Assembly: GCF_015679325.1 (NCBI RefSeq)
Contig: NZ_JADPVI010000003.1
Span: 124,001 to 188,000 of the forward strand
Origin: Kaistella gelatinilytica
GTDB taxonomy: Bacteria; Bacteroidota; Bacteroidia; Flavobacteriales; Weeksellaceae
Direction of reading: 5' to 3'
DNA: 64,000 nucleotides
The stretch's first letter is position 1; each line of letters opens with the position of its first letter. Shown piece after piece: positions 9,374 to 55,845 of the stretch. Under the pieces are notes generated by a model. It searched no databases. It was not told the DNA's origin and saw only the letters and a list, made by a program, of their open reading frames with translations. A program made the position numbers and the translations under genes.

Positions 9374-9422
9374 TGAGTAATGAGTAATGAGTAATGAGTA
9401 ATGAGTAATGAGTAATGAGTAA
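9374..9422 (+). repeat. Perfect tandem array of seven 7-bp units (TGAGTAA)
   Basis: Seven exact copies of TGAGTAA occupy 49 bp, beginning a few bases after the stop codon of the SUI1 gene and ending where TGAAAAA breaks the pattern. Each unit contains stop codons, so the array cannot extend the upstream reading frame. Perfect short repeats of this kind usually vary in copy number by slippage. It lies between the SUI1 gene and the hairpin element at 9453. Confidence 0.97.
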
Positions 9423-9452
9423 TGAAAAATACTTTTAATTCTACAAAACCAT

Positions 9453-9530
9453 CTGCAGCCCGACTTGAGTGGATCCCGATGTAAAATCGGGAGGGAACGG
9501 AAGGTCTCGTCTTTAAGGACGAGACCCAAA
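9453..9530 (+). repeat. Two-hairpin intergenic element, copy A
   Basis: The element begins CTGCAGCCCGACTTGAGTGG, has a first hairpin TCCCGAT (9474-9480) / ATCGGGA (9486-9492), a linker GGGAACGGAAGG, and a second perfect 9-bp hairpin GGTCTCGTC (9503-9511) / GACGAGACC (9518-9526), ending CCAAA. Copies B (51981-52084) and C (55698-55790) share the opening CTGC..CCG, the GGGAG-GGAAGG-type linker and the ending CCCAAA, but carry different hairpins. Neither hairpin has a T-run, so it is not an ordinary terminator. It ends 29 nt before the ATG at 9560. Confidence 0.7.
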
Positions 9531-51840: not shown

Positions 51841-51980
51841 TTTTAATAAGTCTTCGTTAAGCGTTGTTAGTGCATGAAGCAGTAATAGAGCTCTTAAGCA
51901 ATGCAAAAATACGATTTTTCTAACCCATGATTAATGCTTATTTTTGCAAATTATAAACTAAGCTTTTTTCGAAGCGAAAA

Positions 51981-52084
51981 CTGCGCCCCGACTTGAACGG
52001 AGCTCTTTTTTATTGTAATCTGAGCGCAGCCGAAGATCACAGTAAAAAAAGCGGGAGTGGAAGGCGGAAATTGGCGCCCCAAAA
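51981..52084 (+). repeat. Two-hairpin intergenic element, copy B
   Basis: Starts CTGCGCCCCGACTTGAACGG; the first hairpin uses TTTTTTATTGT (52006-52016) against ACAGTAAAAAA with a loop containing GAGCGCAGCCGAAGATC; then GCGGGAGTGGAAGGCG links to the second hairpin GGCG (52063-52066) / CGCC (52075-52078) and the ending CCCCAAA. The framework matches copies A and C. It lies in the divergent gap and ends 17 nt before the ATG of the thioesterase gene. Confidence 0.7.
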
Positions 52085-52101: not shown

Positions 52102-52641
52102 ATGTCAGATTATCATTATAAATTCGAAGTTCGATGGAGCGATATTGATGCGAACAAACACTTGGCAAATTCGTCTTACGTTATGTACTGTGCGCAAACC
52201 CGAATGGCGTTTATGAATACGCACCACATGGGACTTAAGGAATTGAGTTATTGGGGAATTGGTCCTGTAATTCTGCACGAAAGATATTCGTTTTTTAAGG
52301 AAATATATGCCGATCAAACGGTTTTTGTTTCATTGGAAATCGCTGGAATGTCGGAAGACGCAAGTATTTATCAGTTTGTTCACAAATTTTATTTACCCGA
52401 CGGAACGCATTGTGCAACGGCGGAGGCAACGGGAGTTTGGATTGATACGATGTTGCGTAAATCGACGACTCCACCCGATGATGTTTTGGAGGTGATGAAT
52501 GAATTTAAAGGGGAAAATGTGAAAGTTTTGACCAGACAGGATTTGAAAGACTTGCCTTTTAAACCTGAAAATGTAGAAGCTTTTCATAAGAAAAACACCT
52601 TTACCTGGAAAAAAGACAAAGACGAGAAAACGGAAGATTAA
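52102..52641 (+). CDS. Acyl-CoA thioesterase, hot-dog fold (4HBT family)
   Basis: A 179-residue protein of the hot-dog thioesterase family. The N-terminal motif VRWSDIDANKHLANSSYV contains the catalytic acidic residue and helix of the fold, followed by the strand QTVFVSLEIAGMSEDAS and the usual ATAEATGVWID. It should hydrolyse acyl-CoA or 4-hydroxybenzoyl-CoA-like thioesters; the natural substrate is unknown. A C-terminal Lys-rich tail (KKDKDEKTED) is odd but unconserved. The leader holds element B. It precedes thiL by 56 nt. Confidence 0.87.
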   Translation: MSDYHYKFEVRWSDIDANKHLANSSYVMYCAQTRMAFMNTHHMGLKELSYWGIGPVILHERYSFFKEIYADQTVFVSLEIAGMSEDASIYQFVHKFYLPDGTHCATAEATGVWIDTMLRKSTTPPDDVLEVMNEFKGENVKVLTRQDLKDLPFKPENVEAFHKKNTFTWKKDKDEKTED

Positions 52642-55697: not shown

Positions 55698-55790
55698 CTG
55701 CGGCCGTGATAGTAGCGGTTACCCCACAGCAAGCGTTGGGAAAAGCTTTGGCGCGAGGAGTAAGAGCGGATAGCACGAATTGTCCGCCCA
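55698..55790 (+). repeat. Two-hairpin intergenic element, copy C
   Basis: Starts CTGCGGCCGTGATAGTAGCGG, contains a hairpin CCCA..TGGG around 55723-55740, a linker GAGGAGTAAGAGCGGATAGC, and a second hairpin GCGGA (55766-55770) / TCCGC (55783-55787), ending GCCCA. The opening, linker and ending match copies A and B although the sequences of the hairpins differ. It lies between the start of the M28 gene and the rpmA terminator, oriented opposite to both genes. Confidence 0.65.
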
Positions 55791-55794
55791 AAAA

Positions 55795-55822
55795 AAAATC
55801 CCAATCAGAAGACTGGGATTTT
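55795..55822 (-). terminator. Intrinsic terminator of rplU-rpmA
   Basis: AAAATCCCA (55795-55803) pairs with TGGGATTTT (55814-55822); on the minus strand it is followed by a run of T. It lies 24 nt after rpmA. Confidence 0.85.
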
Positions 55823-55845
55823 ATATGTATAAAACGCTTTTTAAA

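Follow-up and report, generated by a model that had tools for sequence, protein, structure and literature searches.

Dispersed Flavo-1-type repeats in a Kaistella genome: a covarying stem, turnover of sites, and orientation bias in one subtype

Results

Three repeat copies in the window

The window (the whole stretch of 64,000 nucleotides that was analyzed) sits in a 3.2-Mb genome and carries three copies of a repeat, designated A, B, and C (Table 1). Inspection of the sequence agreed with an initial sequence-only reading on several points: the three copies are intergenic and on the plus strand, share a frame consisting of CTGC..CCG, a GGGA..GGA linker, and CCCAAA, and contain no terminator-type T-run. 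Copies A and B are oriented in the sense direction just 5' of a start codon; the ATG at 52102 begins 18 nt after copy B. A promoter-like TTATTTTTG box precedes copy B by about 40 nt, and this copy is probably part of a 5' UTR. Two further features were observed next to the copies. A 7-base unit, GAGTAAT, is repeated in tandem at 9374-9425, in the stretch that separates copy A from the stop codon upstream of it; G012 has approximately two units at its orthologous position, and none were seen in the other genomes viewed. Directly adjoining copy C is a hairpin (AAAAAAAATCCCAATC..GACTGGGATTTT, 55790-55835), one side of it an A-run and the other a T-run, that looks like the bidirectional terminator behind rpmA.

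Table 1. Repeat copies in the window and their structural parts
Feature	Position	Strand	Basis or pairing
Copy A, Kaistella subtype, with short apical hairpin and inserted 3' hairpin	9450..9530	+	R1 match
Copy A, apical hairpin P3, CCCGAT..ATCGGG	9475..9491	+	Sequence
Copy A, inserted hairpin module GTCTCGTC..GACGAGAC, in place of the 3' arm of P1	9504..9525	+	Sequence
Copy B, complete Kaistella-subtype element	51978..52083	+	R1 match, 98.1 bits
Copy B, 5' arm of P1, GCGCC	51983..51987	+	Pairs with GGCGC, 52073-52077
Copy B, 5' side of P2, CCG-A-CTT-GA-AC	51988..51998	+	Pairs with 52057-52067 (GT-GG-AAG-G-CGG)
Copy B, variable apical hairpin P3, GCT-C-TTTTT ... AAAAA-AGC	52002..52052	+	Other species have a different P3 at this site
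Copy C, Flavo-1 proper	55698..55790	+	RF01705 match, 55698-55784
Copy C, 5' arm of outer helix P1, GCGG	55700..55703	+	Pairs with CCGC, 55784-55787; sequence and Rfam structure line

Assignment to the Flavo-1 superfamily

At the curated gathering cut-offs, Rfam gave no match in the window, and Flavo-1 (RF01705; gathering cut-off, 42 bits) was seen only when an E-value threshold was applied. Copy C then gave a match to the whole model (positions 1-76) that scored 34.1 bits, short of the gathering cut-off, with E=0.0019 in the window; neither A nor B was listed at E<=1 in the scan of the whole window. Elsewhere, seven copies resembling A and B (hereafter the variant) matched RF01705 over its full length with E-values of 9e-5 to 0.05, and one further place matched in L008; variant copies at other loci scored 28.6-38.5 bits, all below 42 bits, and some copies in the same genome surpassed the cut-off. 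The secondary-structure plan, including covarying pairs, is common to the window family and Flavo-1. The assignment to the Flavo-1 superfamily is firm, with A and B representing a diverged Kaistella subtype and C representing Flavo-1 proper.

Beyond A and B, 36 copies were collected, and a model of their subtype (R1) was built from 28 aligned copies; copy A matched it with 33.9 bits (E=7e-7; E=4.4e-6 in the genome scan). Scanning with covariance models, as the sequence-only reading had proposed, revealed many further copies in the genome and its relatives, with covarying pairs. This genome yielded at least 62 Flavo-1 and at least 55 R1 matches, in partly overlapping lists that are lower bounds because 107-150 candidates were scored, indicating a hundred or so copies of the family. 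A tight 18-base frame pattern (<=2 mismatches) retrieved 38 copies in the genome and its reversed counterpart none, and both Flavo-1 and R1 matches were present in all 18 same-genus genomes searched. The earlier remark that similar sequences with no described function occur in Chryseobacterium-type genomes was right in substance: the sequences correspond to Rfam Flavo-1, here in a Kaistella-like genome, whose nearest named relatives, judged by a thioesterase protein, are Kaistella species (97% identity to K. jeonii). The original 2010 description presented Flavo-1 as a probable RNA without a cis-regulatory role (Weinberg et al. 2010, PMC2864571), and a 2022 review counted it among abundant small RNAs (PMC9029176). 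A search of the available literature for intergenic palindromes of Chryseobacterium returned nothing.

A single imperfect stem with a variable apical hairpin

The initial description of two independent internal hairpins within a constant frame did not hold, since the frame blocks of copy B pair with each other (P1, GCGCC/GGCGC; P2, CCG.CTT/AAG.CGG; then AC/GT) and enclose a single variable apical hairpin. The family fold is one long imperfect stem, with variation confined to the apical hairpin. P1 joins the extreme ends, GCNNC pairing with GNNGC just before CCCAAA; inward of it, CCG/CGG is separated by an A.G mismatch from CYT/ARG, which is followed by a GA/GG loop and RY/RY. Beyond these lies an asymmetric GGA/GGGA loop, and the stem is capped by the apical hairpin, GCT-(C)-TTTTT..AAAAA-AGC, whose sequence and length both vary freely. 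Among the three window copies, only A has a second hairpin. This is the inserted module, which takes the place of the 3' arm of P1 and is found again in at least three more copies in the genome (L009, L026, and L033); a P3 resembling that of copy A also occurs in L030, L032, and L035. Copy C follows the same plan when aligned to the Flavo-1 model, its P1 falling outside the paired portion of that model. Unconstrained folding returned the expected stem for B and two hairpins for A and, in the case of C, missed the family fold.

The claim that pairing is kept in A and B despite different bases, and that this reflects selection on structure, was supported by the alignment and by covariation. Across 89 copies and 21 pairs, 95.1% of cells were paired, both-sided change occurred at 16 pairs (including, in many copies, two of the five P1 pairs), and 236 cells were double-changed, compared with at most 44 in controls in which the partner was slid; these counts ignore kinship among copies and come from an alignment fitted to the model. 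An independent MAFFT alignment of 28 copies agreed, with both-sided change at nine pairs and in 68 cells versus at most 14 cells in slid controls. The mismatch itself covaries: A.G, as in P2 of copy B, was found 68 times, G.A 16 times, and G.G twice (Fisher p=1.6e-15, kinship ignored). At covarying pairs, G.T outnumbered A.C by 12 to 4 (p=0.08), which is suggestive only, and the ratio over all pairs, 19:23, is uninformative. In 84 of the 89 copies, the written strand folded better than its complement.

Other repeats were seen nested within the elements. A separate hairpin repeat, CTTCGACAAGCTCAG, is located in the loops of many copies. A hairpin repeat of the form CTTCGACA(A/G)GCTCAG lies in element loops at L006, L014, and L038 and in many apical loops of G000 copies; the 400 kb of G000 that was sampled contains only eight copies of it.

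Turnover at orthologous sites

The orthologous sites of the three copies were compared in 19 same-genus genomes. Site A was filled in seven (G000, G002, G006, G008, G012, G017, and G018), with a remnant in G016. Site B carried the variant in eight (the same seven and G004) and a third related subtype in two (G001 and G011); it was degraded in two (G009 and G016) and empty or unrelated in seven. Only two genomes, G000 and G009, had a filled site C; their copies share the frame and differ in the apical hairpin. Apical hairpins at one site differed wholesale between species. Among named genomes, Cloacibacterium rupense has a copy at site B. The third subtype, GCAATAGGGAT..ATCC..GCCCGACC..ATTGCCCAAA, was observed at this site in Chryseobacterium sp. 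VAUSW3, K. pullorum, and Soonwooa (L361, L366, and L392), approximately 20-150 nt 5' of position 1501, where the match begins.

Within the collected set, L011 and L327 were 97% identical over the whole element, and L011 was 93% identical to both L024 and L022, with unrelated flanks in each case. Such near-identity, together with the filled, empty, decayed, and replaced sites, shows that copies have been gained, lost, and copied, and so have spread. Comparison of filled with empty sites revealed no recognizable target-site duplication, which the A+T-rich flanks would hide. The 5' flank of variant copies has a T-rich tract at -10 to -15, reaching 1.06 bits at -13, and the downstream side is A-rich; these flanks may perhaps mark a target preference.

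Orientation relative to replication and neighboring genes

The GC skew of draft G000 was too noisy to define replichores, so single-contig relatives were used. Origin and terminus were located from GC skew, measured on 20 sampled stretches; this covered three single-contig genomes and, for G008, its main contig. These positions were set without using the copies; the block pattern had been noticed before testing. The variant lay opposite to the leading-strand direction in 39 of 50 copies in G006 (p=9e-5 for this genome alone), 24 of 31 in G008, 17 of 22 in G016, and 19 of 28 in G012, or 99 of 131 pooled, for which p=4e-9 is too small because sites are common to several species. Flavo-1 proper displayed no replichore bias (56 of 104 in two genomes), so a fork-linked mechanism would apply to one subtype only.

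Gene context was available for 41 of the 50 G006 copies, the remaining nine having none. Copies lay opposite to the leading strand in 18 of 18 cases between leading-strand genes, 6 of 12 between lagging-strand genes, and 7 of 11 elsewhere; part of the replichore bias is confounded by gene sense. Between co-directional genes, 24 of 30 copies in G006 were antisense to these genes, and simple ORF calls in G000 gave 19 antisense and 8 sense. Sense leaders are thus not the rule, though A and B are in the sense direction, and the suggestion of an RNA thermometer-like leader is unsupported as a general description.

Relation to REP-associated transposases

Of the three readings initially offered, mobile DNA of the REP type is, broadly, the best fit, but its specific link to a REP transposase failed. 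Y1_Tnp (PF01797) was absent from four genomes that carry copies, with 12 to 79 matches to the two models together (Flavo-1/variant matches: G004, 29/11; G014, 6/6; G017, 42/35; G018, 46/33), and G024 has three Y1_Tnp genes and zero Flavo-1. Only one of 32 Y1_Tnp loci had a copy within 1.5 kb. The GTAG or CGTC tag was absent from the base and end of the fold, the aligned ends being CTGC..CCCAAA. As a separate candidate, CTTCGACAAGCTCAG was considered as a RAYT product and rejected, no copies lying within 1.5 kb of any of the 32 loci.

Discussion

On balance, we favor the view that these sequences are dispersed, non-autonomous repeats of the Flavo-1 superfamily, in which the selected property is the fold of a single strand and which, as their location and orientation suggest, spread as folded DNA instead of acting as a regulatory or leader RNA. 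The mechanism is moderately supported. A putative enzyme would recognize the folded strand, presumably as single-stranded DNA, and copy the element, perhaps at the replication fork; if only the frame were recognized, the apical hairpin could be swapped or could receive other hairpin repeats, and effects on adjacent genes would be incidental. No mobilizing enzyme was found, which counts against a DNA repeat, and the long occupancy of sites A and B in many species would also fit a function.

The orientation of the variant might instead result from selection only, the better-folding strand being purged from the mRNA sense or from the lagging-strand template whatever the mode of spread. This account, which we consider somewhat unlikely, is compatible with folded-DNA repeats and would replace only the fork-linked step. 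In its favor, every copy follows the bias when gene sense and replication point the same way, no bias is left when the two conflict, and the more stable fold is the written strand; Flavo-1 proper, however, has a similar fold without replichore bias. An extended form of the folded-DNA reading holds that Flavo-1 itself is a mobile element recognized by its fold as single-stranded DNA, not an RNA, with a putative non-RAYT mover, one subtype in fork register, and exchanged apical hairpins. We advance this proposal tentatively and regard it, as a whole, as unlikely.

A structured RNA (a small RNA or a leader), as the Rfam entry type implies, would attribute the covariation to selection on RNA and appears rather improbable. 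The strong covariation with the G.T excess at covarying pairs fits RNA as well as it fits single-stranded DNA, the written strand is the better folder, and the probable 5' UTR position of copy B is kept, with its orientation, in many species. Yet copies among co-directional genes are mostly antisense in both G006 and G000, a reversed copy lies upstream of the site B gene in Frigoriflavimonas, copies are gained and lost, and in the published F. psychrophilum transcriptome Flavo-1 matches are sense or antisense indistinctly, many of them outside transcribed regions (PMC9723704). Classical REP/REPIN elements moved by a RAYT (Y1_Tnp) transposase are already largely refuted and very improbable, since the four Y1_Tnp genes in this genome, one of them approximately 1.3 kb from a copy, are outweighed by the copy-bearing genomes without the gene, the G024 genes without Flavo-1, the nearly copy-free Y1_Tnp surroundings, and the missing tags. 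A transcription terminator or attenuator is scarcely tenable, for the GC-rich stems adjoin gene ends but neither strand has a T-run after the stem, and the apical stem has its T-run before and its A-run after on both strands.

The family is already known. To our knowledge, the new elements are a Kaistella subtype below the Rfam cut-off, the outer helix P1, and the A.G/G.A swap, along with the turnover of sites, the absence of a RAYT link, and the biased orientation, which in the variant subtype is possibly a new clue. Since 2010, Flavo-1 has been cataloged as a probable RNA; should it be a DNA repeat, such annotations are misleading. Direct handles for identifying what copies Flavo-1 come from the outer helix, from the swapping of apical hairpins, and from the replichore bias.

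Like MITEs, the window family is non-autonomous, dispersed, and palindromic, but it has only a 5-bp variable end helix, with no recognizable target duplication or parent transposon. It shares with REP/REPIN elements its short, intergenic, foldable form, its many copies, and an imperfect stem, and differs from them in lacking the GTAG/CGTC tag, in its greater length (70-130 nt), and in its distribution, as several copy-bearing genomes have no RAYT and RAYT genes are not flanked by copies. In comparison with Flavo-1, the window copies score below the gathering cut-off, and the Kaistella subtype has CCGACYTGARYGG/RYGGARGGCGG blocks in place of CCGAUNGNAGCGG/AGCGGANAGCGG, ends in GCCCAAA, forms an outer helix P1 that the Rfam model leaves unpaired, and is biased in orientation, as Flavo-1 proper is not. 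The two nevertheless have in common the frame, the order of short helices, the purine-rich internal loops, and the variable apical hairpin, and both occur at high copy number in the same clade.
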